From: Pseudarthrobacter sp. AL07
Lineage (GTDB): Bacteria > Actinomycetota > Actinomycetes > Actinomycetales > Micrococcaceae
DNA: 64,000 bases
Direction: 5' to 3'
Assembly (NCBI RefSeq): GCF_029960665.1
Contig: NZ_JASBRB010000003.1
Coordinates: 62,001 to 126,000 of the forward strand
Of the stretch, positions 12,339 through 59,101 are shown one piece after another. A model generated the notes under the pieces. That model saw nothing but the letters and a program-made list of their open reading frames with translations, did no database searches and was not told the origin of the DNA. Numbering within the stretch: position 1 is the first letter of the stretch; each line of letters begins with the position of its first letter. The position numbers and the translations under genes are program-made.

Positions 12339-14021
12339 ATGTCTGAACGGAATTCCCTCAGCGACCTCAAGATCGCACGGCAGGCACAGATGAGGCCCAT
12401 CGAGGAGATTGCAGCTGCCGCGGGCATCAACGCCGCCGCTCTGGAACTTTACGGGCGGTACAAGGCGAAGGTTGATCCGGCGTTGCTGACTGCGCCGGCG
12501 CCCGCCGGAAAGGTGGTACTCGTCTCTGCGATGTCGCCGACGCCCGCCGGCGAGGGGAAGTCCACCACCACGGTGGGGCTCGCCGATTCGCTGGCCCGGG
12601 CCGGGCACAAGGTGATGATCGCGCTGCGGGAACCCTCGCTGGGCCCGATCCTGGGAATGAAGGGCGGCGCCACTGGCGGCGGCTACTCCCAGGTGCTGCC
12701 GATGGACGAGATCAACCTGCACTTCACCGGTGATTTCCATGCCGTGACGTCTGCGAACAATGCCCTGATGGCGCTCGTGGACAACCACATCTACCAGGGC
12801 AACGAGCTGAACATCGACCCCCGGCGGATGACGTTCAAACGCGTCCTGGACATGAATGACAGGTCGCTCCGCGAGGTCATCATTGGCCTGGGCGGTCCCA
12901 CCCAGGGTGTGCCCCGGCAGGACGGCTTCGACATCACCGTGGCTTCGGAGATCATGGCGGTTTTCTGCCTGGCCACCAGCCTGGCCGACCTCCGCGAGCG
13001 CTTGGGCCGGATCACGTTCGGCTACACGTACTCCCGCGTTCCGGTCACCGTGGCGGACCTCGGCGTCCAGGGCGCCCTGACCCTGCTCCTGAAGGAAGCC
13101 ATCAAGCCCAACCTGGTGCAGACCATTGCCGGCACTCCCGCGCTGGTGCACGGCGGGCCGTTCGCCAACATCGCGCACGGGTGCAACTCGCTGATTGCCA
13201 CCCAGACGGCCCGGCGGCTCGCGGACATCGTGGTCACCGAGGCTGGCTTCGGCGCAGACCTGGGCGCGGAGAAGTACATGGACATCAAGGCGCGGATCGC
13301 TGACGTGGCGCCGTCCGCCGTCGTGGTTGTGGCCACTGTCCGAGCGCTCAAGATGCACGGCGGCGTGCCCAAAGACCGGCTGACGGAACCCGACCTTGAG
13401 GCGCTGCAGGCCGGCGTCGCGAATCTTCGGCGGCACGTGCACAACGTGGAGAAGTTCGGGGTGGCACCGGTGGTGGCCATCAACAGGTTCTCGTCCGACA
13501 CGGAAGAGGAGCTGGACTGGCTCCTGGAGTGGTGCGCGGCGGAGGGGGTCCATGCTGCGGTGGCGGATGTGTGGGGCCGGGGCGGCGGTGGCGACGGCGG
13601 CGACGAGCTGGCCGCGAAGGTCGCCGCCGCGGTTGCTGGGCCGAACAGCTTCCGGCATCTGTATCCCTTGGACGTGCCCGTGGAGGAGAAGATCCGGACC
13701 ATTGCGCAGGAGATCTACGGCGCGGACGGGGTGGACTTCTCAGTCCCCGCCCTGAAGCGCCTGGCCGAGATCGAAAAGAACGGCTGGTCCGGGCTTCCCG
13801 TCTGCATGGCCAAGACCCAGTATTCCTTCACCGACGACGCCTCCCGGCTGGGGGCTCCCAAGGGCTTCACCGTGCACGTCCGGGACCTCATCCCCAAGAC
13901 CGGCGCGGGCTTCATCGTGGCCCTGACCGGTGCCGTCATGACGATGCCTGGCCTCCCCGCCGCCCCCGCCGCCATGCGAATGGACGTCGACGACGCCGGC
14001 AACCCGGTAGGCCTCTCCTGA
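12339..14021 (+). CDS. fhs: Formate-tetrahydrofolate ligase
   Basis: ATP-dependent ligase making 10-formyl-THF from formate and THF, 560 aa, the usual length. The P-loop-like [51 protein letters not shown] and [15 protein letters not shown] are family signatures. The internal segment [14 protein letters not shown] is Gly-rich. The start follows AAGGACAAGG directly. A 59-bp palindrome begins 6 bp after its stop. Confidence 0.97.
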
Positions 14022-35607: not shown

Positions 35608-36969
35608 TCAGTCCGCCACCAGCTCCAGCGCGAGCTCGGTGCGGACAACCTGGGCAAGGCGCTCGGCGACGGACTGGGCCGTGGCTTCGTCGCCGGCTTC
35701 CACCATGACCCGCACTACGGGCTCGGTGCCTGAGGGGCGGAGCAGGACACGTCCGGTCTCGCCTAGTTCGGCTGCGGCCTCGGCCACGGCCACTGCCAGC
35801 ACCTCGGAGCTATGCACGCGGCTGCGGTCCACGCCCTTGACGTTGATGAGTACCTGCGGGAGCTTGGTCATCACAGTGGCGAGCTCCTTGAGCGGTTTGC
35901 CTGTCAGCGCGATCTGCGCAGCGAGCTGCAGGCCGGTAAGGACGCCGTCGCCGGTGGTGGCGTGGTCGGCGAAGATCACGTGGCCGGACTGCTCGCCGCC
36001 GAGGTTGAATCCGCCGTCGCGCATGCCTTCAAGAACGTAGCGGTCCCCCACCGCTGTTTCGCGGATGCTGATGCCCGCTTCGCGGAGGGCGATCTTGAGG
36101 CCGAGGTTGCTCATGACGGTGGCAACCAGGACGTCGTCGATGAGTTTGCCTGAGGCTTTGAGGGCGACGGCCAGGATTGCCATGATCTGGTCGCCGTCCA
36201 CTTCGGTGCCTTCGTGGTCCACGGCGAGGCAGCGGTCAGCGTCGCCGTCGTGGGCGATGCCCAGGTCGGCGCCGTGCTTCAGCACCGCGGCCTTGAGCGG
36301 ACCGAGATGGGTGGAACCGACGCCGTCATTGATGTTGTGGCCGTCCGGCTCCGCGCCGATCACCAGGACGTCGGCGCCGGCGTCCTTAAAGACCTGGGGC
36401 GAGCAGCCGCTGGCGGCGCCGTGGGCGCAGTCGAGGACAACCTTCAGGCCGTCGAGGCGGTGCGGGAGCGTCTGCAGGAGGTGGACGACGTAGCGGTCTT
36501 CGGCGTCGGAGAAGCGTTGAATCCGGCCCACGTTGCTGCCGACGGGCCGCACGGGCTCCTTGCTCATCTGTTCCTCGATGGCGTTCTCGACATCGTCGGG
36601 GAGCTTCTGGCCGCCGCGGGCGAAGAACTTGATCCCATTGTCAGGAGCGGGGTTGTGGGAAGCCGAGATCATGACGCCGAAGTCGGCGTCGAGGTCTGCC
36701 ACCAGGTACGCCGCCGCGGGAGTCGGAAGGACACCGGCGTCGTAGACGTCAATACCGGAGCTGGAGAGCCCTGCCTCCACAGCGGCGGCGATGAATTCCC
36801 CGCTGGCGCGGGGGTCACGCGCCACCACGGCACGGGGCCGGGTGCCGTTGGTATTGCGGTCATGACCAAGCACGACGGCGGCCGCCTGGGCAAGCTTCAT
36901 AGCCAGCTCGGCCGTCAACAGGCCGTTAGCCAGGCCCCGGACACCATCTGTTCCAAATAATCTAGACAT
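35608..36969 (-). CDS. glmM: Phosphoglucosamine mutase
   Basis: Converts glucosamine-6-phosphate to glucosamine-1-phosphate for UDP-GlcNAc, directly after GlmS. 453 aa, four alpha-D-phosphohexomutase domains. [14 protein letters not shown] opens the protein; [13 protein letters not shown] holds the phosphoserine at about residue 104; [11 protein letters not shown] binds Mg; [10 protein letters not shown] selects the sugar; [13 protein letters not shown] binds phosphate. It is convergent with mscL and starts 47 bp from the small gene on the same strand. Confidence 0.96.
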
Positions 36970-37016
36970 CGTGGATAAGTCTAGGTGATGGACGCTTGGG
37001 CGCTTGAAACGACTGG

Positions 37017-37250
37017 TCAGGGGGACACCAGATTGGTCTGTCCCTTACCGTGGTCCTGAAGATGGAGTTGCCACTTGATTGCCTTCCCCTTGGCCCGCTT
37101 CGACGTCAGATGCCATCCCTGGCAGTCTCCACATGGGTGGACGCTGGCGGGCTGCTTGCCGCCCGATGAGGAGCCTTTGAGAACGATGATTCGGAGCGCG
37201 CGGTTTGCGTCCCAAACGGTCGGATAGGTGATCTTGGTGCAAGTAGCCAT
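37017..37250 (-). CDS. Small CxxC/GWHLTSK protein
   Basis: 77 aa from an ATG at 37250 with AAGGA seven bases upstream. The core reads [16 protein letters not shown], a Cys-x-x-Cys followed by GWHLTSK that I know from small uncharacterised proteins of actinobacteria and their phages; a preceding segment [14 protein letters not shown] fits the same family. The Cys pair and His suggest metal binding, but no function is established. It lies immediately outside the rpsI 3'-end copy, so it could be a leftover of an integrated element. Confidence 0.65.
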
Positions 37251-37637
37251 GGGCGAGTCCTTGTTCAAGGAGGCGCATGGCTCATATCCACACTTGGACG
37301 CCACCTAACAGTGACGTCCCGGGTCCACTCGAAGTGGTCGTGTGACGTAAAGCTAGTTCATACAAGTCATCAATTGCAATGGTAGGAAAACTCCGCACCA
37401 AACGTGAGACGGGCTCCCGAGTAAGCGGTTATAGCCCTTGGAGTAATGCGGAGCGTTACTGGCCTGTTTGAGACCGGCCGCCATCGTGGATGCCGGCCGT
37501 GACGTCGTAGATGTCACTGCCGGAGCCATGCGGCCCCATTTAGACTCCGTCGCCCCGGGCTTGACCTGACCGAATTCTCGATGATGCGAGTATGCTCGCT
37601 GCAGCAGTTGGTAACGACGGCGAGGGGGACGTAGGGC
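37251..37637. other. Intergenic region at the left edge of the glycosyltransferase block
   Basis: 387 bp without a recognised gene. It contains the degenerate copy of the rpsI 3' end and terminator (37406-37479, separate entry) and the GAGGGGGA ribosome site of the acyltransferase gene. No integrase, tRNA or inverted terminal repeat was found in it. Confidence 0.6.
37406..37479 (-). pseudogene. Degenerate copy of the rpsI 3' end and its terminator
   Basis: Ungapped alignment to 43947-44020 gives 57 of 74 identical bases by my count, and 40 of 47 over the coding part (37433-37479). On the minus strand it reads AGLKQASNAPHYSKG against [15 protein letters not shown] of the intact S9 protein; the stop is lost. 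The match continues past the stop into the first arm of the rpsI terminator. The copy keeps Pro where the resident gene has Gln, as in the usual actinobacterial S9 tail, so it may come from a different rpsI allele. Confidence 0.7.
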
Positions 37638-38750
37638 GTGCCGACAATTCGCACTCAATTGAACAGTCTGACGGGGCTTCGCTTTTTCGCAGCGATGGCG
37701 GTGGTCCTCTACCACTTGCGAATCTATGTCCCCCAGCTCAGCGACGGCCTAGCTGTGTTCGGGTACGGGTTCACTGGTGTAACTTTCTTCTTCATTCTCT
37801 CCGGATTTGTCCTCGCATGGTCCTACCGTTCCGATGTCCGATCGGGGCGGTTCTATTGGAATCGGTTCGCTCGGATCTGGCCCCTCCATATGTTGACCAT
37901 GATCGCCTCGATCTGGATTCCGTTGTTGAGCGCCACGTCTTCAGCTACTTTCTCGGCGGTGCCGTTCGTTGTAACGTTAACCCAGGCGTGGATCCCGGGC
38001 AGCCCTTTCCTGACATCGTTTAACGGGGTTTCTTGGTCGTTATCGTGCGAGGCATTCTTCTATTTACTGTTTCCGCTCCTTTTTCGGAAGCTTGGCAGTC
38101 ATCGGTCAGTGGCCTGGATTGCTGGAGGCGTTCTGGTGGCTCTTGCCCTGGTAGGTCTAAGCTTGTCCTCCTTCGCATCGTTTTCGGTAGCGGATTATCT
38201 CTTGGGAACCATGCCGCTCTACCGCCTCGGAGAGTTCGTCCTCGGCATGTGCCTGGCCACGGTTATGAACCGTGGCTGGCGCCCCCGGTTTCGTCTTGTG
38301 CACGCGATTGGACTATCAGCGATTTCCCTGGTTGGTTTGACCACTGTGTCGCTGATCTTCATGGGGACATCCGGTGGTCTGCCTGTTATCTACGCCAACT
38401 TAGCCATGATCCCCGGTTTCCTTGCGGTCATCTCTGCGTCAGCGAGCCGAGATCTATCGGGCAGTAGCGGCAGACTCGCCTCGAGTGCGCTGGTGCGTCT
38501 CGGCCAGTGGTCGTTCGCGCTGTACCTCGTTCACGAGCTCGTACTGAGAGTGGTCAGACCTCTCATCGGCGAGCAGCCTGTGGGGGATGCATTGATGGCC
38601 GCGGTCATCGTGATATTTGCCTCCATTGCACTTTCTGGCCTCCTGCACGAGTTCGTAGAGAAACCTGCGGAAAAATGGCTGCGATCTCTTCGCGGTTCTA
38701 AGATGAAACCCTCGGCAACGCCCCGTGAAGTACACCACCCGGGTAAGTAG
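37638..38750 (+). CDS. Acyltransferase family 3 membrane protein (OafA-like)
   Basis: Multi-pass membrane O-acyltransferase of 370 aa with about ten hydrophobic segments. LNSLTGLRFFAAMAVVLYHL carries the family Arg and catalytic His; FFFILSGFVLAWSYR and RFARIWPLHML are the next conserved blocks. Such enzymes acetylate or otherwise acylate exported glycans. No C-terminal SGNH domain is present. GTG start with GAGGGGGA upstream. It leads the low-GC glycosyltransferase block and probably decorates the sugar built by the next genes. Confidence 0.88.
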   Translation: MPTIRTQLNSLTGLRFFAAMAVVLYHLRIYVPQLSDGLAVFGYGFTGVTFFFILSGFVLAWSYRSDVRSGRFYWNRFARIWPLHMLTMIASIWIPLLSATSSATFSAVPFVVTLTQAWIPGSPFLTSFNGVSWSLSCEAFFYLLFPLLFRKLGSHRSVAWIAGGVLVALALVGLSLSSFASFSVADYLLGTMPLYRLGEFVLGMCLATVMNRGWRPRFRLVHAIGLSAISLVGLTTVSLIFMGTSGGLPVIYANLAMIPGFLAVISASASRDLSGSSGRLASSALVRLGQWSFALYLVHELVLRVVRPLIGEQPVGDALMAAVIVIFASIALSGLLHEFVEKPAEKWLRSLRGSKMKPSATPREVHHPGK

Positions 38751-38866
38751 GTAGCCGAACCCTTGGCTGGTCTAGAGTCCCTCGCACTACTTGGTTTTTG
38801 CGGCTGAGTACTCGACTTTTGAAGGAACTCTCGCCAGCAAGATCTTTGGACCTCTACGATCCATTC

Positions 38867-40105
38867 ATGACACCTAGCTATGGGGGCTTGGCGCTCGAAA
38901 TTGTAGTACCGGTTTTCAACGAGGAAGCGGTACTCGAAAACAGCATCACGACGCTCTCCGAATATCTGACGCTCGAAATGCCTTCGGCGTGGAAAATCAC
39001 CATTGCGGACAATGCAAGCACTGACAGAACACCAGCGATTGCCGCTCGGCTCAGTGAGCAGTTGCCTCATGTGCATTACCGCCGTCTGGAAGTAAAGGGA
39101 CGGGGGTACGCTCTCCGGGATGCTTGGGGAGCTTCGGAAGCGAAAGTCCTCGCCTACCTGGATGTCGACCTTTCCACTGACCTGGCGGCGTTGCCACCCT
39201 TGGTGGCGCCGCTGCTTTCGGGTCATTCGGATATTTCCATCGGCACCCGGCTGGGACAGAGCTCGCGTGTGAGTCGCGGACCGAAGCGGGAATTCATTTC
39301 GCGTTCGTATAATTTCCTGCTTCGGCGGACAATGCAGGTCCGGTTTTCGGATGCGCAGTGTGGCTTCAAAGCAATACGGGCCGACGTGGCAAAACGCCTG
39401 CTTCCGCATGTTGAGGACAACGGTTGGTTCTTTGATACTGAGCTGCTGATCATTGCCGAACGATCCGGGCTGCGCATCCACGAAATTCCCGTGGACTGGG
39501 TTGATGATCCGGACAGCCGCGTTAACCTCAAACAGACTGCTTACGACGATCTTCGCGGCATGGTCCGGGTCGCTGGTTCCCTGATCAGGGGAACAATTCC
39601 TGTGCAGGCCATCTATGCCGAGCTTGGCCGCCGGCCAATCGTTCCGCCCGCGCGGCCAAGTTTCTTCGGGCAAGTCATCCGGTTTGGCTTGGTGGGAGCT
39701 GTCTCGACCCTCGCCTTCGCGCTGCTCTATTTGGTGCTCCAAGGTCCCTTCAGCTCTCAAGAGGCAAACTTCCTGGCCCTGCTAATGACAGCTGTCGGCA
39801 ACACGGCGGCCAACCGCCGGTTCACCTTCGGCATCAGCGGCCCCGGACGGTTATTTACGCAGCAATTGCAAGGCCTTATCGTCTTCCTGCTGGCTTGGGG
39901 AATTACGTCCTCTTCGCTTCTGATCCTTCATTCGATCAACGTCAATGCCGCACCTAGTACGGAGTTACTCACCTTGACGGCCGCCAACGTTTTCGCAACG
40001 CTGATGAGGTTTGTGCTCCTCCGGATCTGGGTGTTCCGCGTCCGCCAAATGGACGAACGGTCCGCGGTGCTCGGACTACGGCCTGCCGGACAGTCTGTCC
40101 GTTGA
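38867..40105 (+). CDS. GT2 glycosyltransferase fused to a GtrA-type membrane domain (copy 1)
   Basis: 412 aa. The N-terminal 230 residues are a DPM1-like GT2 domain: EIVVPVFNEEAVLE, ADNASTDRTP, YLDVDLSTDLAALPPLV (the DxD region), TRLGQSSRV and CGFKAIRADV. The C-terminal 150 residues hold four hydrophobic segments starting VIRFGLVGAVSTLAFALL, the GtrA family linked to flipping of polyprenyl-phosphate sugars. A combined synthase-flippase for a lipid-linked hexose is likely (inference). ATG at 38867 aligns with the start of the paralogue at 55941; an upstream TTG at 38798 is not needed. Its TGA overlaps the next TTG start. Confidence 0.85.
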   Translation: MTPSYGGLALEIVVPVFNEEAVLENSITTLSEYLTLEMPSAWKITIADNASTDRTPAIAARLSEQLPHVHYRRLEVKGRGYALRDAWGASEAKVLAYLDVDLSTDLAALPPLVAPLLSGHSDISIGTRLGQSSRVSRGPKREFISRSYNFLLRRTMQVRFSDAQCGFKAIRADVAKRLLPHVEDNGWFFDTELLIIAERSGLRIHEIPVDWVDDPDSRVNLKQTAYDDLRGMVRVAGSLIRGTIPVQAIYAELGRRPIVPPARPSFFGQVIRFGLVGAVSTLAFALLYLVLQGPFSSQEANFLALLMTAVGNTAANRRFTFGISGPGRLFTQQLQGLIVFLLAWGITSSSLLILHSINVNAAPSTELLTLTAANVFATLMRFVLLRIWVFRVRQMDERSAVLGLRPAGQSVR

Positions 40106-41982
40106 GCATCAAAGAAGCGAGCCAGGTCCCGGTTCGCGCGAATGATACTGCCCGGCATCGCCTGCCGTGGGAGCAAATCGGTCTGACAGTCCTCCTCTTG
40201 GGCACAGCGGCAGCGTTCCTATGGGGGCTGGACCGCAATGGCTGGGCGAATCCCTACTACTCCGCTGCGGCGCAGGCCGGATCCGAGGACTGGAAAGCCT
40301 TCTTCTTCGGCTCACTTGATGCCGGCAACCTCATCACTGTCGACAAGCCCCCCCTGAGTATTTGGATCATGTCCTTGTCAGTGCGGCTGTTCGGCCTGAA
40401 CTTTTGGGCCATTTTGGTTCCCCAGGCTCTCATGGGTCTAGCCACGACCTGGCTGATATACAAAGTCATCCGCCGCAGCCACCCTGCCGCTATCGCATTG
40501 TTGGGCGGTCTCATCTACGCCACCACCCCAGTAGTGCTGCTGATGTCGCGGTTCAACAACCCTGAGCCGCTTATGGGGTTACTGACCGTGGCAGCCGTCT
40601 ACTTCGCACTCAGGGCCATGGACAACAACTGCTGGGCCTGGTTCCTACTGACCGGGACAGCCCTGGGCCTTGGGTTCATGGCAAAGCAGATCCAGGCCTT
40701 CCTGGTGATTCCCGCACTCCTCCTCGCGGTGCTTCTACTTGGCGTCGGCACCATAGGGGCGCGCCTCCTCCGGCTGCTAGGAACGCTAGCGGCGATGGTA
40801 ATAAGCGGCGGCTGGTGGATGACCATAGTGGATGTGACCCCCGCCGCCGACAGACCCTATGTTGGCGGATCCGCGTCGAATAGTATGCTCGAACTGACGC
40901 TGGACTACAACGGCCTGGCTCGTTTCCTTCGGTTCAGCGCGGATTCACAGCCTGGGACCGCGGAAGCCCCTGTCCCGTCCGATATGAACTACGACGGCGG
41001 CCCGGGCCGTCTCTTTAACGCCAATTTTGCTCCCGAAGGAGCGTGGCTACTTTTCACCGCGCTGATTTGCGCCCTCGCGTTGGTAGTGCTGTGGCGACAG
41101 TCAGGGAGCGGCAGACAGGGTTCACGTCTGATGGCCGTTGGCGTTGTGTGGCTGGTCACCGTCTACCTTGTCCTGAGCTACATGGGCACGATGACACACA
41201 CGTACTATATTTTTTCCATCGCGGCTCCCGTCGCCATCGTGGTTCCTTTGGGAATCCAGGTTCTGTGGAATCTGAGGCATCGAGGAGTTCCCCGCCTTAT
41301 CGGCGCTGTCCTTGTGTCCGGGACCGGATATATCGCATTCCGCATTTTCCAGTACAGCAACGATTGGGGCCTGTGGCCGCTCGTCGTCGCATGCGCCACG
41401 TGTCTGGCCACGGCTGGGTGGCTCTTGGCAGCACGGCCGCTCGCGCGCGTCGCTGCCATGGCCCTGGTGATGTTATCCATGGTGATTTCTCCAGTGGCAA
41501 CGGACGTTATTACCTTAACTCGACCCCAGTCGGGCACCAATCCCCTGTCGGGGCCGGTGGCCAACAATCCTGACGCACTGTCGGCACACCTTGAGGCAGC
41601 CCGTCTCGGGAATCCTCCCCTGGCACGCCATCTCGGATACGGGGTTACGCCAGCAGACGGCGTGACGACACTTCTCAGAGAAACCAGCGAGGCTAAATGG
41701 GCGGCGGCCACCTATACCGCCCAGAACGCGGCCCAATATCAGTTGGCCTCTAACCGGCCGGTTATCGCGCTGGGAGGGTGGCTGGGTGAGGACCCCGCCC
41801 CTACCTTCGAACAGTTCAAGACCCTGGTCCAGAAGCAGAAGATCGGTTACTTCATATGGCAACAACCAATCCTTGACGGAGTACCGCTTGGAATGGATGC
41901 TGCCGCCATCACGGATTGGGTCCACGCCAACTACAAGGGAGAAGAAGTTGACGGTGTCACAATCTACGACCTTACGGAATAG
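40102..41982 (+). CDS. GT39-family membrane glycosyltransferase (copy 1)
   Basis: 626-aa integral membrane enzyme of the ArnT/PMT type that uses a polyprenyl-phosphate sugar. The first external loop has LDRNGWANPYYSAAAQAG and LITVDKPPLSIWIM, then RFNNPEPLMG, and a periplasmic-side C-terminal domain ending DWVHANYKG. More than ten hydrophobic segments are visible. The start TTG shares bases with the TGA of the GT2-GtrA gene (TTGA at 40102-40105), so translation is coupled and the two proteins probably act in sequence. The acceptor is unknown. Confidence 0.85.
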   Translation: MSIKEASQVPVRANDTARHRLPWEQIGLTVLLLGTAAAFLWGLDRNGWANPYYSAAAQAGSEDWKAFFFGSLDAGNLITVDKPPLSIWIMSLSVRLFGLNFWAILVPQALMGLATTWLIYKVIRRSHPAAIALLGGLIYATTPVVLLMSRFNNPEPLMGLLTVAAVYFALRAMDNNCWAWFLLTGTALGLGFMAKQIQAFLVIPALLLAVLLLGVGTIGARLLRLLGTLAAMVISGGWWMTIVDVTPAADRPYVGGSASNSMLELTLDYNGLARFLRFSADSQPGTAEAPVPSDMNYDGGPGRLFNANFAPEGAWLLFTALICALALVVLWRQSGSGRQGSRLMAVGVVWLVTVYLVLSYMGTMTHTYYIFSIAAPVAIVVPLGIQVLWNLRHRGVPRLIGAVLVSGTGYIAFRIFQYSNDWGLWPLVVACATCLATAGWLLAARPLARVAAMALVMLSMVISPVATDVITLTRPQSGTNPLSGPVANNPDALSAHLEAARLGNPPLARHLGYGVTPADGVTTLLRETSEAKWAAATYTAQNAAQYQLASNRPVIALGGWLGEDPAPTFEQFKTLVQKQKIGYFIWQQPILDGVPLGMDAAAITDWVHANYKGEEVDGVTIYDLTE

Positions 41983-43852
41983 AGATATTGCCGCCCTCAG
42001 TGACTCTCGCTTGTTCCTCCGCAGGCCTTGGTGGGAACTTCCAGCACTCGTGCTAATTATGGTTGGAGCCGCCGTCCTATATATTTGGGGATTGGCAGCG
42101 AACGGATGGGCTAACCCCTACTACTCGGCGGCAGTGCAGGCTGGCCTTCATGACCCGGCAGCATTCTTCTTCGGATCTGCGGACTGGGGCAACTCAATAA
42201 CAGTCGATAAGCCGCCTCTCAGCCTTTGGATCATGGGCTTGTCCGTCCGACTCTTCGGACTGAACACATGGGCCCTGCTGCTGCCTCAGGCGGCGATGAC
42301 CTCGTGTAGCACGCTTCTAATTTACCGTCTGGCCAGACGGCACCTTCCGTCCTATGCTGGCCTCCTTTCGGCCGCCGTCTTCGCCAGCACGCCCATCACA
42401 GTGCTTCTCGCACGCTACAACAACCCTGATCCACTGATGGTGCTCCTGATGCTATTGGCCATTTATGCAGGCATCCGAGCAACAGAGTCAGGGCGGGTCC
42501 GGTATCTATACCTAGCGGCCGGATTTCTGGCTCTGGGCTTCCTCGCGAAACAGCTTCAGGCGTTTCTTGTCTTGCCAGCTATCGCCATTGTGTTCTGCCT
42601 GTACGGCCAGAAGAGCTGGCGGAAACGCGCGGTCTCGCTGGTTCTGGCCGGTCTGCTTCTAGCAGCTGGCGCTCTTGCATGGCCGCTAGCCGTTGACCTT
42701 ACGCCGTCTAACTCCCGCCCGTACGTGGGGGGGTCAACAACTAATAGCATGCTCGAGTTGACTATGGGTTACAACGGAATCGATAGAATTGTCCAGTCGG
42801 GGGACGGACCCTCGGCAGCACTGACCCCTCAAGAATTCCAGAGCATCACTACGGACGCCAGCTTTTTCCGTTTATTCAACTCCAATTATGGTCAGGAGTC
42901 AGGCTGGCTGCTGCTGCCAGCACTGATGGTCTGCGCCATCATTGCGGTTCAGGCCGTCCGTCGACGAAGTGAGGCCAGTCGACCCATATTTGCAGTAGCC
43001 GCAGCAACCTGGATGATCTCGACGTACGCTGTGCTTAGCTTTATGGGCAATAGCATTCATTCGTACTACACCGCCTCAATAGCGGCGCCCTTGGCACTTT
43101 GCATCGGGCTGGGAAGCCAGATGATAGTTTCATCGGCTAGGTCGATTCCGCAGCGTATCGGGATCGCGGCCGCCATCGTGCTCAGTTCGCTATTCTCACA
43201 CGCAATGTGGCAGGTCAGTGCGTCCTATCCTGAGGCTGTGGGGACGGCGTTGCTGCTTATCGGGCTGATCGGCGCAGCAGCGCTCTCGGTGCCGGCCCCC
43301 TTCAAGTGGGTTACGCCGGTCGCGGCCAGTCTCGGTATCGGCGCTTTGCTAGTTGGGCCCCTAGTATGCTCCATGCTGACTTTGACTTCTCCACAGCAGG
43401 GCTCCAATCCGCTCTCAGGCGGCCTCTCCCGGAGCCCCAACACCATCAGCCGGTTCTTGGACGGCGTCAAGCGCAATGACCCCGCATGGGCAACTGGCTT
43501 GGCAATAGGTGTCACACCCAGCCCTACACTGTCGGCCTACATTAGAAACGCTTCGCCGGGCTGCACCTGGGCCGCTGCCACTTATCCAGGGCAGACTGCT
43601 GCCCGCTTCCAACTGGAGGTGGGGAGGCCGGTTATGCCGCTCGGCGGCTTTGCCGCCCTGGACGCTACGCCAACCCTTGAACAATTCAAGGAAATAGCCC
43701 AGAACGGGCAACTTTGCTACTTGGTTGTACAGCCCGAGCAACTAAAAGTGCCAGGCCTCAGCAGCGAACTCTTGGCCATCCAGAAATGGGCTTCTGATAC
43801 CGTCACGCCGCAGCATATTGACGGTATCACCGTATACGACTTGCGCAGATAG
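41948..43852 (+). CDS. GT39-family membrane glycosyltransferase (copy 2)
   Basis: 634 aa and clearly paralogous to its neighbour: LAANGWANPYYSAAVQAG, SITVDKPPLSLWIMGLSVRL, RYNNPDPLM and YVGGSTTNSMLELTMGYNG match blocks in copy 1. The TTG at 41948 is preferred because AAGGGAG lies six bases upstream. This start is inside the previous gene, overlapping it by 35 nt; the longer frame from 41786 is an artefact of that overlap. It is last in the block and is followed by a bidirectional terminator shared with rpsI. Confidence 0.83.
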   Translation: MTVSQSTTLRNRDIAALSDSRLFLRRPWWELPALVLIMVGAAVLYIWGLAANGWANPYYSAAVQAGLHDPAAFFFGSADWGNSITVDKPPLSLWIMGLSVRLFGLNTWALLLPQAAMTSCSTLLIYRLARRHLPSYAGLLSAAVFASTPITVLLARYNNPDPLMVLLMLLAIYAGIRATESGRVRYLYLAAGFLALGFLAKQLQAFLVLPAIAIVFCLYGQKSWRKRAVSLVLAGLLLAAGALAWPLAVDLTPSNSRPYVGGSTTNSMLELTMGYNGIDRIVQSGDGPSAALTPQEFQSITTDASFFRLFNSNYGQESGWLLLPALMVCAIIAVQAVRRRSEASRPIFAVAAATWMISTYAVLSFMGNSIHSYYTASIAAPLALCIGLGSQMIVSSARSIPQRIGIAAAIVLSSLFSHAMWQVSASYPEAVGTALLLIGLIGAAALSVPAPFKWVTPVAASLGIGALLVGPLVCSMLTLTSPQQGSNPLSGGLSRSPNTISRFLDGVKRNDPAWATGLAIGVTPSPTLSAYIRNASPGCTWAAATYPGQTAARFQLEVGRPVMPLGGFAALDATPTLEQFKEIAQNGQLCYLVVQPEQLKVPGLSSELLAIQKWASDTVTPQHIDGITVYDLRR

Positions 43853-43922
43853 GGCCGCGCTGTCGCTGACTGGGTACAAGAGCGCCTGCACCATCAAAAG
43901 CGGCACCCATGTCGGCGCACGC

Positions 43923-43955
43923 AAAAAAGCCCGCCCCACCAATGGCGGGACGGGC
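43923..43955 (-). terminator. Terminator of rplM-rpsI, probably bidirectional
   Basis: On the minus strand GCCCG...CCC pairs with GGG...CGGGC across ATTGGT and is followed by TTTTTT (complement of 43923-43928), 17 bp past the rpsI stop. On the plus strand the same stem is followed by TTCTTT and can end the GT39 transcript. Confidence 0.85.
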
Positions 43956-43971
43956 TTCTTTGCGAGCGGAA

Positions 43972-44478
43972 TTAGCGCTTGGAGTACTGCTGAGCCTTAC
44001 GGGCCTTCTTGAGACCGGCCTTCTTACGCTCGATGACGCGTGCGTCACGACGCAGGTAACCGGCCTTCTTCAGGGTGGCGCGGTTGTTCTCGGTGTCGAT
44101 CTCGTTCAGTGAACGGGCGATGCCGAGGCGCAGGGCACCGGCCTGGCCGGAGATGCCGCCACCGTGGATGCGGGCGATGACGTCGTAGGCGCCGTCAAGA
44201 TCAAGGATCTTGAAGGGCTCGTTGACGTCCTGCTGGTGCAGCTTGTTCGGGAAGTAGTTGTCCAGCGCGCGGCCGTTGATGGTCCACTTGCCGGTGCCGG
44301 GGACGATGCGCACGCGGGCGACAGCTTCCTTCCGGCGGCCAACTGCGGCGCCGGCGACGGTCAGTGCCGGGCGTTCCTTCTTCGGCGCTTCTGCTTCTGC
44401 AGGACCGCTCTCCGAGGTGTAGCTGGTCGGGTTTTCCTCAGCCACAACGGCCTCGGTGGTCTCTTCGTTCTGAGCCAC
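43972..44478 (-). CDS. rpsI: Small-subunit ribosomal protein S9 (uS9)
   Basis: 168 aa. The N-terminal 40 residues are an acidic, Ala/Glu-rich extension common in actinobacteria. The S9 core follows: [50 protein letters not shown], and the C-terminal tail [11 protein letters not shown] that reaches the P-site tRNA. It follows rplM by 38 bp as in most bacteria. Its last codons and terminator have a decayed duplicate 6,541 bp to the left, on the same strand. Confidence 0.98.
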
Positions 44479-44516: not shown

Positions 44517-44960
44517 CTACTGGGCGACCTGGGAAATTTCGAACGTCTTGGGCTGCTGGGCGGCGTGCGGGTGCTCTGCACCGCGGTACACCTTCAGCTT
44601 GCCCAGCTGCTGTGCAGCGAGGGAGTTCTTGGGAAGCATGCCCTTGATGGCCTTCTCAACGGCGCGAACCGGGTTTGATTCCAGGAGTTCCGCGTAGTTG
44701 ACGGAGGTCAGGCCGCCCGGGTAGCCGGAGTGGCGGTATGCGCGCTTCTGCTCCAGCTTGGCGCCGGTCAGGGCTACCTTCTCAGCGTTGATGATGATGA
44801 CGAAATCGCCCATGTCCATGTGGGACGCAAAGGTGGCCTTGTGCTTGCCGCGCAGCAGGATTGCGGTCTGGCTCGCAAGACGACCAAGGACAACGTCTGT
44901 GGCGTCAATGACGTGCCACTGGCGGTTGATATCGCCGGGCTTCGGGGTGTACGTACGCAC
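44517..44960 (-). CDS. rplM: Large-subunit ribosomal protein L13 (uL13)
   Basis: 147 aa from the GTG at 44960, which gives [19 protein letters not shown], the normal N-terminus, with GAGG eight bases upstream; a frame to 45005 is too long. [44 protein letters not shown] and [19 protein letters not shown] are family blocks. First gene of the rplM-rpsI operon. The 296-bp gap to the divergent prepilin peptidase gene must hold its promoter, which I could not place securely. Confidence 0.97.
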
Positions 44961-45256
44961 GGTTTTTGCCTCGTTCTTGTTCTGGCGTTCTTGTTTAGGT
45001 GTCACTCAAGCGTGTGCACCTACTATCTATGCGCTACCGGAACAGAGGTGAGGGCTCTATGTAACCAGTAATCCTGAGGTCCCGAATGTGCTCGTTGAGT
45101 AGTCATCCTGCAACCGGATTCTCAAGCGGGCACGCATCATCGAGAAAGGACACGCACAACGACTACCAATGTTAGCTTGAACCTGGCCTCAGGGTCAAAA
45201 TGGGGTAGCCGGACACCCATGAGTAATTCCGCCGGGCCGACATAACAGGGGATGCA

Positions 45257-53908: not shown

Positions 53909-55909
53909 CTACAGGTCGCAACCCACGAATCTATACAGCACCGCGGAGCCTTGCTGGTCCATTTTGACGAACGCCGGCGAATTGTCGGGAACTTTAATGC
54001 CCGGAAAATCATTGACTTCCTTGCGTAGGGGATCAATGAAGTGGTCGCCAAAGTCGAGGAGAAATTGAATGTTCTCCCGTTTCGCAGCCGCGCAGGCCTC
54101 AGATCCCGGCGTGGCTTGATTCAGCATCTTGGCCAGAAGTAAACGGTCTGCATTCGAACCCGTGTACGCGTGCGGGAATAGTACCCGGCGATCCGCAATG
54201 GCATAGGCCGTGGAACTACCATCCCAAGGATTGTTGGCCATCACAGCACCCTCCGGTACCTCTGCGCTGAGCCGCTTCAACAGGTCAAGTTCATTGGGGC
54301 TCAGCAGCGGCGAGTCCCCAGTTAAAGAGTACGTATGTTCCCGGCCCGGCGCCGTTTGCGAATTCGTTGGCCAGATGATGGCGGATGTCGCGATCGCTGC
54401 GATGCCAACGGGAACGAGCCATTTGATGCGGTAGCGGGGGGCAATACCCTCAAAGATCCAGATGGCCGCTGCACCGACAAAGACGGTCCAGAACATTGGC
54501 AGAAGGGCCGCAAGGCGAGGTGGGTCACCATACCAGGCGCCAATAATAATCTGTCTAGCGAGTGGCTCCGGAACCGATGCCGCCACCAGGTACAACATAA
54601 CTGCACCTCCGTACGAGGCCAAAAACCACCGTTCGGTTGGCCGCCCGATCAGAAGAGCGGTTCCGAGCAGGGTAAGCACCGCCAGGCCCCAGTCCACGTC
54701 CCCGTGCGTAGGTGCTGCCAGGAGCACGCTCCCCACAGCCGCCGGTAACGAGTCAATCGGATCCCAGGTGGTGGTCCAAGGTCGCACAACTACCCAAACC
54801 ACCAGGCCAAAGGCAAATACGCTAATCCAAAATGCGATCCATTGCAGGTATCCAAAGGGATCGGACCGTTGCTGTTTGAGCTGCCGGAACGAACGCGCGG
54901 CAGCCATGGCGGCGAAAGCCGATGAAAGTCCAACGAGGGCCACAAGCGCCGACATATGCGTGCATACGAGTCCTGACAGACCGACAACCAGCGTGGTCAG
55001 CCCTAGCGGCCAAGGCACGGGCGTTGTCTTGCCAAACTTAAATATCGTCGCCAAAACCATAAGTAGCGGAGCCAAAAACGTCACCGCAAGCATGTAGGGA
55101 AATAGCGGTCCGAAGTCACTCTTTTGGCTCTGCATGACTGTGAAAGGGAAGGCGAAGAAACCCGCACTGGCGACCCCGGCAGACAACAGGGCAACGATCT
55201 TGGGCCCAACTACCACATGGACCAAAAGAAGCACGCCCAGGGGCCAAGCGGCAGCTACTATCGCAAAATTGAGGGCGTTCGCCGCTTCAACCACCGGTAG
55301 CCGGGTCGCCTCAGCCACCAAAGCGGCAAGCGCGTGCCAGATCTGAGGGTAAAACCCGGTCGATTCGCCCATCAGTCCTCTCACCGAGAAGGGCGATCCG
55401 TCGCCCGAATCTATGATCTGCTGGACCAGATTCAGGTGGAATGGCACGTCAATGCCCTGATTGATGTTGCCGGGACGCTCAACGATCTGGACATAGCGCA
55501 AGGTCAGAAGGACCCCGCTAGCCACTAAGGCAAACCAGTACGCCGTGCCAGCGCTTTGTTCGGCCGGGGGCCATCCAAAGCTTTTCGGCCATAGCCTGGC
55601 CGCTGTCCGGAGCAGGACTAGAACGGCTCCGACAAGTAATACCACGGCCACGGCAAAGACGCCGATCTGCCAGTCGATATGCAACCACCAACAGACAAGA
55701 GTGGACACGGCAACAAGTGATGCCGTCAGTACGGGCGCAAGTGACACCATCCATATGCGCCGAAGCCCCAGCGCCCAGCCCAAGAGTAGCCCGGGCAGCA
55801 TGAGTACTGCCGTCGCGACACCGAGACCCGGCAGTGCGGCAAGCCAAGAGATCAAGGATTCGCCAAGTAGTTCATCAGTATTCCCCAAGTTTCGACATTC
55901 TGCCCACAA
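53909..55909 (-). CDS. Large multi-pass membrane protein, probable glycosyltransferase-like (DUF6541-type)
   Basis: Up to 666 aa with roughly 13 hydrophobic segments and an extracellular C-terminal domain of about 170 residues. The first large loop has NINQGIDVPFHLNLVQQI followed by GESTGFYPQIWHALAAL, resembling actinobacterial DUF6541 proteins thought to have a GT-C fold; no activity is known. The start is uncertain: TTG at 55909 is only two bases from GGGAGG, and later TTG codons are possible. It diverges from the GT2-GtrA gene only 31 bp away, suggesting shared control and a role in the same glycan pathway. Confidence 0.75.
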   Translation of the reverse strand: MWAECRNLGNTDELLGESLISWLAALPGLGVATAVLMLPGLLLGWALGLRRIWMVSLAPVLTASLVAVSTLVCWWLHIDWQIGVFAVAVVLLVGAVLVLLRTAARLWPKSFGWPPAEQSAGTAYWFALVASGVLLTLRYVQIVERPGNINQGIDVPFHLNLVQQIIDSGDGSPFSVRGLMGESTGFYPQIWHALAALVAEATRLPVVEAANALNFAIVAAAWPLGVLLLVHVVVGPKIVALLSAGVASAGFFAFPFTVMQSQKSDFGPLFPYMLAVTFLAPLLMVLATIFKFGKTTPVPWPLGLTTLVVGLSGLVCTHMSALVALVGLSSAFAAMAAARSFRQLKQQRSDPFGYLQWIAFWISVFAFGLVVWVVVRPWTTTWDPIDSLPAAVGSVLLAAPTHGDVDWGLAVLTLLGTALLIGRPTERWFLASYGGAVMLYLVAASVPEPLARQIIIGAWYGDPPRLAALLPMFWTVFVGAAAIWIFEGIAPRYRIKWLVPVGIAAIATSAIIWPTNSQTAPGREHTYSLTGDSPLLSPNELDLLKRLSAEVPEGAVMANNPWDGSSTAYAIADRRVLFPHAYTGSNADRLLLAKMLNQATPGSEACAAAKRENIQFLLDFGDHFIDPLRKEVNDFPGIKVPDNSPAFVKMDQQGSAVLYRFVGCDL

Positions 55910-55940
55910 GTCCTCCCTGCGCGCCTATAGCATACATAGC

Positions 55941-57179
55941 ATGAAACTTAGCCACGGGGGCCTGGCGCTTGAAATTGTTGTACCGGTTTTCAATGAGGAA
56001 TCGGTACTCGAAAAGAGCATCATCGAGCTCGCAAGTTACTTACAACTTGAAATGTCAATGACGTGGCAGATTACCATCGCTGACAACGCCAGCACTGACA
56101 GAACACCCATTATTGCTGCCAACCTTGCCGACCGTATGCCAAACGTTGCTTATCGGCGCCTCGAGGTTAAGGGACGCGGATGGGCCCTTCGGGATGCTTG
56201 GAGTTCCTCCAAGGCCACGGTCCTGGCGTATTTGGATGTGGACCTCTCCACTGATCTCGCGGCCCTGCCGCCGTTGGTGGCACCGCTGCTGTCCGGCCAT
56301 TCCGATATCTCCATCGGCACGAGGCTTGGCCAGAGCTCCCGCGTGAGCCGAGGCCCGAAGCGCGAATTCATTTCGCGCTCATACAACTTTCTGCTAAAAC
56401 GAACCATGCAGGTGCGTTTCTCCGACGCTCAGTGCGGTTTCAAGGCCATCCGTGCCGACGTCGCCAAAACGCTCCTTCCCCACGTCGAAGACAACGGCTG
56501 GTTCTTTGACACCGAACTCCTAATCATTGCGGAGCGGTCCGGCCTACGAATTCACGAGATTCCCGTGGACTGGGTGGACGACCCGGACAGTCGGGTGGAC
56601 ATCAAGCAGACTGCAATCGACGACATTCGCGGACTGGTCCGCGTTGCTGGCTCCTTGGTGAAGGGTGTGATTCCCGTCCAAGCAATTTATGCAGAGCTCG
56701 GGCGGCGCCCGATAGTTCCGCAGTGGCGCCCCAGCTTTTTTGGTCAGGTTATTCGGTTCGGGGTGGTCGGGGCCGTATCAACATTGGCATTCGCTTTGCT
56801 CTTTGTGCTGTTTCAGGAGCCTTTTGGGGCACAGGAGGCCAATTTTCTAGCCCTCCTCCTGACGGCGATCGGAAATACAGCCGCTAATCGCCGTTTCACG
56901 TTCGGCATCAACGGCCCGGATAGGCTCTTCACGCAGCAGTTCCAGGGGCTTGTTGTCTTCACAATGGCCTGGTCAATCACATCATCATCACTCTTGGTAT
57001 TGCATGCTGCTACACCGAATTCGTCATCTACTATGGAGCTTGTGACTCTGACAGGCGCCAATATCCTCGCGACACTAATGCGCTTCGTCCTGCTGCGCGT
57101 CTGGGTATTCCGTGTTCGCAGAGCCGACGGAGCTGCCCGTCTGATGACCTCAAGCCTTAAAACGGCTCGGGTAGCTTGA
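55941..57179 (+). CDS. GT2 glycosyltransferase fused to a GtrA-type membrane domain (copy 2)
   Basis: 412 aa, exactly the length of copy 1 at 38867, with long identical stretches (ALPPLVAPLLSGHSDISIG, QCGFKAIRADVAK, LRIHEIPVDWVDDPDSRV). GT2 domain first (EIVVPVFNEESVLEKS, YLDVDLSTD), then four GtrA hydrophobic segments from VIRFGVVGAVSTLAFALLF. Differences cluster in residues 25-75 and the C-terminal tail. It starts MKLSHGGLALE at 55941; the longer frame from 55545 is antisense to the neighbour. Its TGA overlaps the TTG of the GT39 gene, as in copy 1. Confidence 0.86.
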   Translation: MKLSHGGLALEIVVPVFNEESVLEKSIIELASYLQLEMSMTWQITIADNASTDRTPIIAANLADRMPNVAYRRLEVKGRGWALRDAWSSSKATVLAYLDVDLSTDLAALPPLVAPLLSGHSDISIGTRLGQSSRVSRGPKREFISRSYNFLLKRTMQVRFSDAQCGFKAIRADVAKTLLPHVEDNGWFFDTELLIIAERSGLRIHEIPVDWVDDPDSRVDIKQTAIDDIRGLVRVAGSLVKGVIPVQAIYAELGRRPIVPQWRPSFFGQVIRFGVVGAVSTLAFALLFVLFQEPFGAQEANFLALLLTAIGNTAANRRFTFGINGPDRLFTQQFQGLVVFTMAWSITSSSLLVLHAATPNSSSTMELVTLTGANILATLMRFVLLRVWVFRVRRADGAARLMTSSLKTARVA

Positions 57180-59101
57180 AGCCCTCCGCCCCGAGCCCGA
57201 TCACCCCCCCTGAGGTTCCATCAGAAGTACTTCAGACGCCCGCCCTCCCCGCTACGCCGCGCCCGCAGTCCCCGCCCCGGCGGAGGGAAAACCAGATGTT
57301 ATGGGTACTCTTAGCCCTGACCGGTCTCCTCTATCTTTGGGGCCTTGATCGAAATGGATGGGCTAACTCCTATTATTCTGCAGCAGCCATGGCAGGCTCG
57401 CAGGATTGGACAGCATTCTTCTTTTCGTCCTCCGATCCAGGCAACGCCATTAGTGTCGACAAGCCTCCGCTGAGCCTCTGGGTAATGTCGGCTTCCGTCG
57501 GGGCCTTTGGTCTGAGTCCCTGGAGCATCTTGGTGCCACAGGCGCTGATGGGCGTTGCCAGTGTCTACCTGCTTTACCGCATGGTCCGCACTTATATCGG
57601 TAGCGCCGCGGGGCTTCTCGCAGCGACGTTTTTCGCCGTAACGCCGGTTGCAGTGGTGATGTTCCGCTATAACAATCCGGATGCGTTGCTTACCCTGCTG
57701 ATGATCGGCATAGCCTATGCTGCGTTGGAGTCCATCCGCCGCAACAGGGTTCGGTGGCTGATTTTGGCCGGTGCGCTCACGGGCGCTGCTCTGCTGACCA
57801 AGCAGCTGCAAATAGCACTGGTACTGCCTGCCGTTGCTGCGGCCTATCTCATGTTTGCCGCGGCGCCATTATTAAAGCGCGTTCTGCATCTCGCCACAGC
57901 CCTTGTAGCAGCCGCGATTACGGGCGGTTGGTGGTTTGTCCTGGTCCAATTGGTCCCGGCTGCCAACCGGCCCTTCGTCGGAGGATCCCGTTTTAACAGC
58001 GCCGTGGAATTGAGCTTGGGCTACAACGGCCTGGACCGCCTTAGCGGTGAGGACGCCAGTCGGACGATGTCTCCCAGCACAGCGAGCCTGGCGGAAAAAC
58101 TGGATCCAGGATTTCAGCGTTTCCTGCAACCGCAATTCTCTGGCCAATTCGGATGGTTCCTGCCTCTGGCTGTAGCAGGCCTGTGCCTTGCGATCTGGCA
58201 CATCACACGGCAAAGCGGTAGCAGGCGGTATCGCGCGTTCCTCAGTCTTTGTAGTGTGTGGTTTCTCTGCTCCTCAACTGTGCTGGCCTTCATGTCCGGG
58301 ATTGTCCATCCTTATTACTCTCTAACTGCTGTACCGCCGCTATCCTGCCTCGCAGCGACCGGTCTGTTGCACTTGTACCGGCTTCGTCATCGGCGAAACA
58401 TACGTGGGGTGCTCGCTGGAACGCTCCTGGCGACCATGGTTCTGGCCTTTGTCTCGGCGAGTCGCTCAACCGCTGATTTCCCCCTTGGTCCCTTGGCGGC
58501 ATTGTTGGTCTGGTCAGTCGCCATCGCCGTTCTGGCGGTCCCACCTCCGTTTCCAGCACTCCGGAACGTGCCAAGGGGACTTTTGGCTGTGGCGCTAATG
58601 GCCGGTCCTTTCGTCTGGTCCGTTAATACAGTTCTGAGTCCCCACGAGGGTGCAGGCGTCGTGGCTGGTCCCAGTATTCTCGGCCTCCGCACGGACCATC
58701 CCGACCGTCAGCAGATGGGTTCCAATGTGCCGCCCAGTTTTGTGGCGGTGATGTTCGGCAATCTACCGGAATCCGGCATCGTTTCGCGGCTCCGTTCCAC
58801 TCCAGCCAGTAGCACATGGGCGGCGGCCATGGTGGGCTCGGAGACAGCGGCCAACTATCAGCTGGCGAGCAAACGCTCGGTGCTGCCGCTGGGCGGTTTT
58901 GACGGCACTGATCCCTTCCCGACCTTGGAGCAGTTTCAGCGTATGGTCGCCGGCCAGCAGGTGGCCTCAATAGTCATTCAGGACCTGCCCCCGCTGACCC
59001 TTGAGGGGCGCGGGGAGTCCGCAAGAATCGTCGAATGGGTAAGAGACCACTATCGGGCCGAACAAATCGGCAGCGCCCAGTACTACAGCACGCTGCCGTA
59101 G
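57176..59101 (+). CDS. GT39-family membrane glycosyltransferase (copy 3)
   Basis: 641 aa, same family as the two enzymes at 40-44 kb: LDRNGWANSYYSAAAMAG, AISVDKPPLSLWVM, RYNNPDALLTL and FVGGSRFNSAVELSLGYNG. A Pro-rich cytoplasmic N-terminus of about 35 residues precedes TM1. Starts at a TTG within the stop of the GT2-GtrA gene (TTGA at 57176-57179). Expected to transfer a sugar from polyprenyl phosphate to an exported acceptor; its location between two Tad loci makes pilus proteins candidates (inference). Confidence 0.85.
   Translation: MKPSAPSPITPPEVPSEVLQTPALPATPRPQSPPRRRENQMLWVLLALTGLLYLWGLDRNGWANSYYSAAAMAGSQDWTAFFFSSSDPGNAISVDKPPLSLWVMSASVGAFGLSPWSILVPQALMGVASVYLLYRMVRTYIGSAAGLLAATFFAVTPVAVVMFRYNNPDALLTLLMIGIAYAALESIRRNRVRWLILAGALTGAALLTKQLQIALVLPAVAAAYLMFAAAPLLKRVLHLATALVAAAITGGWWFVLVQLVPAANRPFVGGSRFNSAVELSLGYNGLDRLSGEDASRTMSPSTASLAEKLDPGFQRFLQPQFSGQFGWFLPLAVAGLCLAIWHITRQSGSRRYRAFLSLCSVWFLCSSTVLAFMSGIVHPYYSLTAVPPLSCLAATGLLHLYRLRHRRNIRGVLAGTLLATMVLAFVSASRSTADFPLGPLAALLVWSVAIAVLAVPPPFPALRNVPRGLLAVALMAGPFVWSVNTVLSPHEGAGVVAGPSILGLRTDHPDRQQMGSNVPPSFVAVMFGNLPESGIVSRLRSTPASSTWAAAMVGSETAANYQLASKRSVLPLGGFDGTDPFPTLEQFQRMVAGQQVASIVIQDLPPLTLEGRGESARIVEWVRDHYRAEQIGSAQYYSTLP

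Follow-up and report, generated by a model that had tools for sequence, protein, structure and literature searches.

How does a block of glycosyltransferase genes come to lie between two copies of the end of a ribosomal protein gene? The question is raised by the rpsI-glmM locus of Pseudarthrobacter sp. AL07, contained in a stretch of 64,000 nucleotides (contig NZ_JASBRB010000003.1, positions 62,001 to 126,000) which was analyzed as a whole and is called the window throughout. A first-pass annotation, made from the sequence alone, had explained the duplicated rpsI end as the attachment (att) sites attL and attR of DNA integrated at a gene 3' end, and the copy as a foreign rpsI allele. We found that the copy is a stump of rpsI which has lost an internal segment and does not represent a bare 3'-end att core, and that the rpsI-glmM interval is an exchange hotspot for surface-glycosylation cassettes in this Arthrobacter-type genus.

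The Repeat Is a Decayed rpsI Stump

The repeat itself was confirmed. Positions 37406-37479 match 43947-44020 without gaps at 57 of 74 bases, in the same orientation and with an offset of 6,541 bp, and cover the last 15 codons of rpsI and part of its terminator, as annotated. The next-best ungapped match to these 74 bp anywhere in the window reached 35/74 on the plus and 37/74 on the minus strand, and a search of the whole genome (3.86 Mb, 107 contigs) at an E-value of 0.001 found the repeat at these two places only. In gapped local alignment it grew to 37393-37479, corresponding to 43934-44020 (66/87), with a score of 69 compared to a maximum of 30 among 200 shuffles. A second colinear piece of rpsI, overlooked by the first-pass annotation, directly abuts the first one: positions 37480-37510 match 44158-44188 at 27 of 31 bases (local score 42, shuffles at most 28 in 500 trials) and derive from 184-214 bp inside the rpsI coding sequence. 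The copy is thus an rpsI fragment with an internal deletion of approximately 137 bp (44021-44157 are missing) and a total length of approximately 118 bp. Piece 1 contains the last ~15 codons, the stop codon and part of the terminator in decayed form, piece 2 is mid-gene sequence, and both lie on the minus strand. Past 37510 a similarity search of the interval with its own rpsI-rplM region did not find further similarity to rpsI. Differences between stump and resident gene numbered 3, 1 and 3 at third, second and first codon positions, respectively, small numbers in which an excess at third positions was absent.

The intact resident rpsI (43972-44478, minus strand; PF00380) shows a ratio of nonsynonymous to synonymous substitution rates (dN/dS) of 0.02. 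Its terminator region occupies 43922-43971 on the same strand, and homology between sister genomes stops about there. Upstream follows an open reading frame (ORF) at 44517-45005 (minus strand), which we take from its position to be rplM. The left flank is formed by glmM (35608-36969, minus strand; Pfam PGM_PMM I-IV) and by a small Cys-containing ORF of 77 aa (37020-37250, minus strand) without Pfam match.

The Stump Lies at the Native Position of rpsI

In the cargo-free genomes G021 (L094) and G017 (L128), glmM is followed first by a relative of the small ORF and then by intact rpsI. The alignment showed the left side of the window to be colinear with both genomes through the terminator and the rpsI end; the stump therefore sits at the native place of the rpsI end and records the former position of the old gene. 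Matches to the small ORF are sparse; only 15 of the 206 genomes of the genus have one.

The same arrangement was found in a second species. Genome G160 (L147/L203; Arthrobacter sp. AQ5-06) carries small ORF, stump, acyltransferase, GT2-GtrA gene, two GT39 genes (GT, glycosyltransferase) and rpsI in the order of the window, and both sequences form one single alignment of 9.6 kb at 90% identity. Its stump differs from that of the window by substitutions and by indels of its own (84% and 81% identity for the two pieces), and the 77 bp upstream of the acyltransferase gene are 92% identical. The insertion is older than the split of the window species and AQ5-06, or it was passed between the two.

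Two observations concern the DNA around the small ORF. Above it, at 37251-37392, the blocks CTCATATCCACACTTG and TCCACTCGAAGTGG are common, wholly or partly, to G017 and G021, and part of this region also matches G085, there beside another relative of the small ORF. Just upstream of glmM, at 36961-36990, a conserved TAGACT/TAAACT-like box lies near the ATG, as for a leaderless promoter; an obvious ribosome-binding site was not seen there or at the same place in the other loci compared (both by eye).

The rpsI-glmM Interval Is a Genus-Wide Hotspot

The interval was read for 161 genomes (160 plus the window) out of the 206 available for the genus. It adjoins glmM in 160 of these loci, while L077 stops before glmM. 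Among 160 intervals, 83 were short (up to 530 bp) and 77 carried cargo (at least 1,267 bp). The empty sites in relatives which the first-pass annotation had suggested to look for are thus frequent, and the block is not conserved at this place in all relatives. With cargo at the same place in 77 of 160 genomes, a one-off island is not supported. The cargo consisted of GT2 plus GT39 genes in 67 of the 77 intervals, GT39 alone in 8, and neither in 2, so that GT39-type genes were present in 75. A cassette combines GT2-GtrA with one or two GT39-type enzymes; GT87 genes, additional acyltransferases and DUF6541 genes were found as further cargo. All GT2 (70/70) and all GT39 genes (106/106) lie on the plus strand of the oriented loci, as do the 5 of 5 close relatives of the acyltransferase (>80 bits). 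Distant acyltransferases (L097, L124, L145) and DUF6541 genes lie on the opposite strand.

For the history of the interval a tree of glmM only was employed, using the 155 loci with a near-full glmM match (five loci with short matches were dropped). We are aware of the fact that this is a single gene beside the locus, itself possibly affected by exchange. Of the tree loci 81 were empty and 64 held GT2 plus GT39, with 8 carrying GT39 alone and 2 other cargo. The tree demands a minimum of 36 changes between the empty and the non-empty state, 31 of them forced by well-supported branches. Shuffled states gave a mean of 51.7 changes and in 0 of 500 cases a number as low as 36, so the filled or empty state is also partly inherited. 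The window's clade of ten comprises four loci with GT2 plus GT39, four empty ones, one with GT39 only and one with other cargo; L146, the sister of the window on this tree, has an empty interval.

Genes for mobility were scarce. From 78 intervals (the 77 filled ones plus L200, whose glmM match was partial) 228 ORFs of at least 110 aa were clustered, and Pfam was run on the 15 representatives, shorter singletons excluded, that belonged to none of the GT39, GT2 and acyltransferase clusters. Mobility-type matches were obtained for L145 (IS110-type, with a weak rve match below cut-off) and L088 (Mutator) only. Outside the genus, G211 was the one of 76 other genomes in an 80-genome family sample with a GT2 gene in the same orientation approximately 2 kb from rpsI. 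Two Sinomonas records (L214, L218) show the layout glmM-GT2-GT39-rpsI. A description of this rpsI-glmM locus was not found among the matches listed for open-licence PMC papers.

A Second, Independent Stump

Every interval was searched with its own rpsI-rplM region, and matches with E < 1e-5 were called strong. Strong matches were present in four intervals, those of the window, L147, L054 and L111, the last of which is described below with the hairpin modules. The main pieces of the three stumps had E-values of 1e-12 to 7e-33, compared to a best value of 0.002 in a reversed-query control on the 78 intervals. In L054 (G047) the stump lies between a GT39 and a GT87 gene and is composed of a terminator part, 27 bp from the middle of rpsI, the region of the rpsI start including the leader, and approximately 30 bp of the rplM end. 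It is independent of the event in the window and cannot be a 3'-end att site. Of 31 named loci that contain both genes, only L203, from the same genome as G160, had a stump. A search for stumps on the glmM side found none; the glmM matches within the intervals did not exceed 41 bp (best E 4e-5).

The Source of the Stump

A Pro codon in the copy, absent from the resident gene, had been taken as the sign of a foreign rpsI allele. This codon (CCG) differs by a single base from the Gln codon (CAG) of the resident gene. It is common to the stumps of the window and G160 and consequently arose before the two species split. Among 161 rpsI C-termini 160 read AQQY and one (L202) APQY; 159 end with RKAQQYSKR, L189 shows the same motif clipped by the match boundary, and L202 ends with RRAPQYSKR. 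For a ranking of possible sources, only the 72 positions at which both stumps agree were compared with the 161 rpsI ends. The best ones were L148 (65), L146 (64) and L143 (64); their intervals are empty, and on the glmM tree they all belong to the clade of 10 species that includes the window. L130, which lies outside this clade, reached 63, compared to 60 for the window's own gene. It is the terminator part that decides this ranking. The resident rpsI is 97-98% like that of the clade. With the near-invariant Gln one base off, ties between sources in the coding part (see below) and the nearest terminator matches within the own clade, the foreign-allele reading is unsupported.

Interval Edges

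Homology was followed to its end in 14 pairs of close relatives with empty and filled intervals. On the glmM side it stopped 14-41 bp above the gene start in 11 pairs, and on the rpsI side all 14 pairs lost it 48-77 bp below the gene end, even if the edge of the gene was identical. Left edges outside the common range were those of the window (+60), L170 (-1) and L043, whose glmM match was truncated. Both edges coincide with conserved functional DNA, which is the rpsI terminator on one side and the DNA immediately preceding the glmM start on the other. They are therefore no proof of a recombination site, and we make no claim of precise sites at the edges.

Proposed Route and Alternatives

Of the first-pass annotation, the insertion at rpsI is supported, together with two copies of rpsI sequence bounding the block and empty sites in related genomes, while the attL/attR and foreign-allele parts are not. 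We regard it as reasonably likely that the cassette and a complete rpsI were added by recombination anchored in rpsI/rplM, after which the older rpsI decayed. In the ancestor of the window species and AQ5-06 the locus would have read glmM, small ORF, rpsI. The incoming DNA would have consisted of the cassette plus a complete rpsI, with the old rpsI kept on the glmM side instead of being replaced. In the simplest route, homologous recombination in rpsI/rplM would have been combined with a non-homologous join at the other end (homology-facilitated illegitimate recombination); alternatively, a single crossover of a circular molecule may have taken place. The redundant old rpsI may then have decayed to the stump of ~118 bp, with selection continuing to act on the other rpsI and on the cassette. 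Old rpsI sequence is kept beside the new one in the window, G160 and L054, and the original join may have gone with the decay. Cassette alleles of the type GT2-GT39a-GT39b occur elsewhere without a stump, e.g., in L101 (there with the acyltransferase too), L110/L205 and L209, so possible donors exist.

Several observations weigh against this route. Identity along glmM and rpsI-rplM, compared for 18 pairs, did not fall towards the interval, and an imported flanking tract was not seen. The four empty sites of the window's clade measure approximately 142-144 bp and have no room for the small ORF, and the exact ancestral allele was not found. Between window and G160 the stump pieces are not the most diverged part, since identity is lower in the small ORF (77%) and in the DNA which lies above it (74%). 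When only the 39 coding bases common to both stumps are counted, 32 of 161 rpsI genes share the best value of 34/39, the window's own gene included (L202 reached 31), so the coding bases of the stump cannot tell one source from another. Just two independent stump events were counted in the 77 filled intervals, indicating that most turnover leaves no detectable stump and may use another route. Such routine turnover without a detectable stump would fit an exchange by flanking homology, by analogy with the integrase-poor hotspots as described in PMC5635113. Finally, a tandem duplication in situ, followed by the loss of one cassette, would look the same.

In this last scenario unequal crossover would have produced a tandem of cassette plus rpsI, of which the first cassette was lost and the first rpsI decayed. 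Foreign DNA is unnecessary here for the rpsI copy, and neither the stump nor the resident gene conflicts with an origin from the rpsI of the clade itself. Two steps are required, however, and the left flank with small ORF and rpsI end matches cargo-free alleles, not a cassette-deleted one; we assign this scenario a small but still appreciable probability. A site-specific island, placed by a tyrosine integrase at the rpsI 3' end and later deprived of it, would turn the stump into the displaced 3' end (attR). According to two reports the rpsI 3' end is a known integrase target in Firmicutes, namely of integrative and conjugative elements (ICEs) in Streptococcus (PMC4701971) and of mecD islands in Macrococcus (PMC5341023). 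The repeats in the window are not limited to an att core at the gene 3' end, since piece 2 comes from inside rpsI, and the L054 stump extends to the rpsI start and the rplM end. The integrase search which had been proposed was run with Pfam and found none between glmM and rpsI in the window, where the small ORF, the acyltransferase, the GT2-GtrA protein and two PMT_2 proteins are encoded. The unassigned ORF representatives of the other intervals gave only transposase-type matches, at two loci, and GT cargo of many divergent alleles occurs at one locus in one orientation. An island of this kind, and with it the attL/attR interpretation, is therefore unlikely. Chance or convergent similarity, with the 74-bp match as conserved terminator-like sequence and not as gene copy, could appeal to an identity of just 77% and to a terminator motif, rich in guanine and cytosine (GC), in part of the match. 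Given 57/74 versus 37 for the next-best match, two colinear pieces with much coding rpsI and the same element in the sister species, the repeat is of rpsI origin, and coincidence has a negligible probability. Recombination anchored in rpsI/rplM remains the route which we prefer.

Cargo Genes and Their Predicted Function

The gene content of the block as given by the first-pass annotation was borne out by Pfam domains. All four genes lie on the plus strand: a membrane acyltransferase (Acyl_transf_3, PF01757; 37638-38750), a GT2 glycosyltransferase fused to a GtrA/DPMS transmembrane domain (PF00535 and PF04138; 38798-40105), and two GT39-like membrane glycosyltransferases (PMT_2, YkcB_C; each PF13231 and PF24878), a at 40102-41982 and b at 41954-43852. 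In comparison with G160 their dN/dS values were 0.30, 0.08, 0.17 and 0.17, respectively; the cassette genes are under purifying selection. For none of the four proteins did NCBIfam give a match above cut-off. By their domains, a GT-A glycosyltransferase, a flippase and a GT-C transferase are all present in the cassette. The GT2 domain would make an undecaprenyl-phosphate-linked sugar, GtrA would flip it, and the GT39 enzymes would attach the sugar to a cell-wall polymer outside. We infer that the cassette probably serves the glycosylation of a cell-wall polymer.

The lower GC content ascribed to the block is real in comparison with glmM and rpsI, but the region between 45 and 60 kb of the window equals it (0.584 and 0.584), so low GC does not set the block apart. 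Since it is true for the interval and yet not specific, it was rejected as evidence of a foreign origin. A second cassette was noticed at 53909-59101, with a DUF6541-like gene on the minus strand, a GT2-GtrA gene 81% identical to the first one, and a GT39 gene. Apparently it lies within an Flp/tad pilus locus; the neighbours and the DUF6541 label were presumed by eye. The rpsI-glmM intervals contain DUF6541 genes as well, whose cluster comprises 8 loci, L174 among them.

Hairpin Modules at the rpsI Stop Codon

A further element was observed at the rpsI end in Micrococcaceae. In 15 of the 161 loci of the genus, plus one with a shortened form, the rpsI end is repeated over approximately 10-11 bp (CAAGCGCTAA and variants) at a distance of 84-88 bp downstream. 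The recurring gene end encloses a hairpin, the stem of which includes the rpsI stop codon. Modules of ~77-91 bp are found in L060, L081, L082, L104, L154 and 10 more loci, as well as in L276-L281 and L285-L292. For one typed member a fold of -54.9 kcal/mol (z -5.6) was calculated, and an alignment of 15 modules showed compensatory changes in 10 of 32 pairs, relatedness being uncontrolled. A covariance model matched 31 of 206 genus genomes at E <= 0.01, with 24 of them below 1e-9 (15 of these 24 had built the model), and 25 of 149 genomes from 10 of 32 genera in the family sample. The window is without the module (best match 17.4 bits, E 0.16). Around model matches 19 loci were read. The hairpin lay at the rpsI stop codon in 14, while five weaker matches lay elsewhere; in those 14 loci CAAGCGC follows again after the hairpin in 11, as a partial copy in two, and not at all in L286.

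Modules also occur in tandem. G292 has four model matches with a 180-bp double unit repeated at 96%, G214 has an 86-bp unit in 2.8 copies at 98%, and G223 and G261 have two each by the model. In L111 two adjacent hairpin copies with the rpsI end (12840-13005) are 98% identical over 56 bp, and this strong match is a young tandem duplication of the module. On the glmM tree module presence (16 of 155 loci) required at least 13 changes, with 8 empty versus 8 filled intervals. An Rfam match at the module was absent in the four loci scanned. A 17-base piece of the module core was present in 27 viral contigs, and the covariance model gave no significant match on viral contigs (best E 0.28). A description of such modules was not found among the matches listed for the open-licence PMC literature. 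The module may be an unusual terminator, which would leave the gene-end copy and the tandem copies unexplained. That the last rpsI codons and the terminator are a general recombination target in Micrococcaceae, at which one process without a classical integrase adds both cassettes and hairpin modules, appears quite improbable to us. If true, long cassettes would leave rpsI stumps, and modules of ~77-91 bp would leave the gene-end copy of ~10-11 bp, sometimes in tandem arrays of up to four. As a separate structured element at the stop codon of a ribosomal gene, the module possibly deserves more attention than the stump.

Significance and Comparison With Known Systems

What appeared to be an att site becomes a fossil from which one can read how sets of surface-sugar genes are able to move when they carry no mobile element themselves. 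The rpsI-glmM locus offers a clean, orientation-locked system for measuring gain, loss and swap of cassettes in Arthrobacter-type bacteria, and these cassettes may set phage sensitivity and surface chemistry.

The locus is a newly recognised case of the known integrase-poor hotspot between core genes. In such hotspots accessory genes are exchanged by flanking homology, according to a report from 2017 (PMC5635113). In both cases accessory genes turn over at a site enclosed by two fixed core genes, mobility genes are few or absent, and empty and filled alleles are mixed among relatives. As a difference, our comparison involved species, each represented by one genome, rather than strains. For the arrays of the Vibrio type VI secretion system (T6SS) a displacement of genes by homology-facilitated illegitimate recombination was proposed (PMC5361080, 2017). 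The homologous anchor on one side, the non-homologous join on the other and the older resident kept beside the newcomer correspond to the route proposed here. The leftover differs, being a decaying housekeeping gene copy here and an immunity gene kept by selection there.

Insertions at the rpsI 3' end are represented by McRImecD of Macrococcus, with imperfect repeats of 160-163 bp, a 61-bp core att and an integrase (PMC5341023), and by the site-specifically inserted streptococcal ICEs (PMC4701971). They share with the window an insertion adjoining rpsI with a repeat of its 3' end. In contrast, an integrase was not found in the interval of the window, and the copy reaches mid-gene, in L054 even the start codon and rplM. 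The cassette itself resembles the multi-component transmembrane glycosylation systems of Gram-positives (PMC8035078, 2021), which likewise combine a GT-A enzyme, a GtrA-type flippase and a PMT_2-type GT-C enzyme. Different from these, GT2 and GtrA are fused in the cassette, its genes are located in a hotspot, and the system is known here from its domains.

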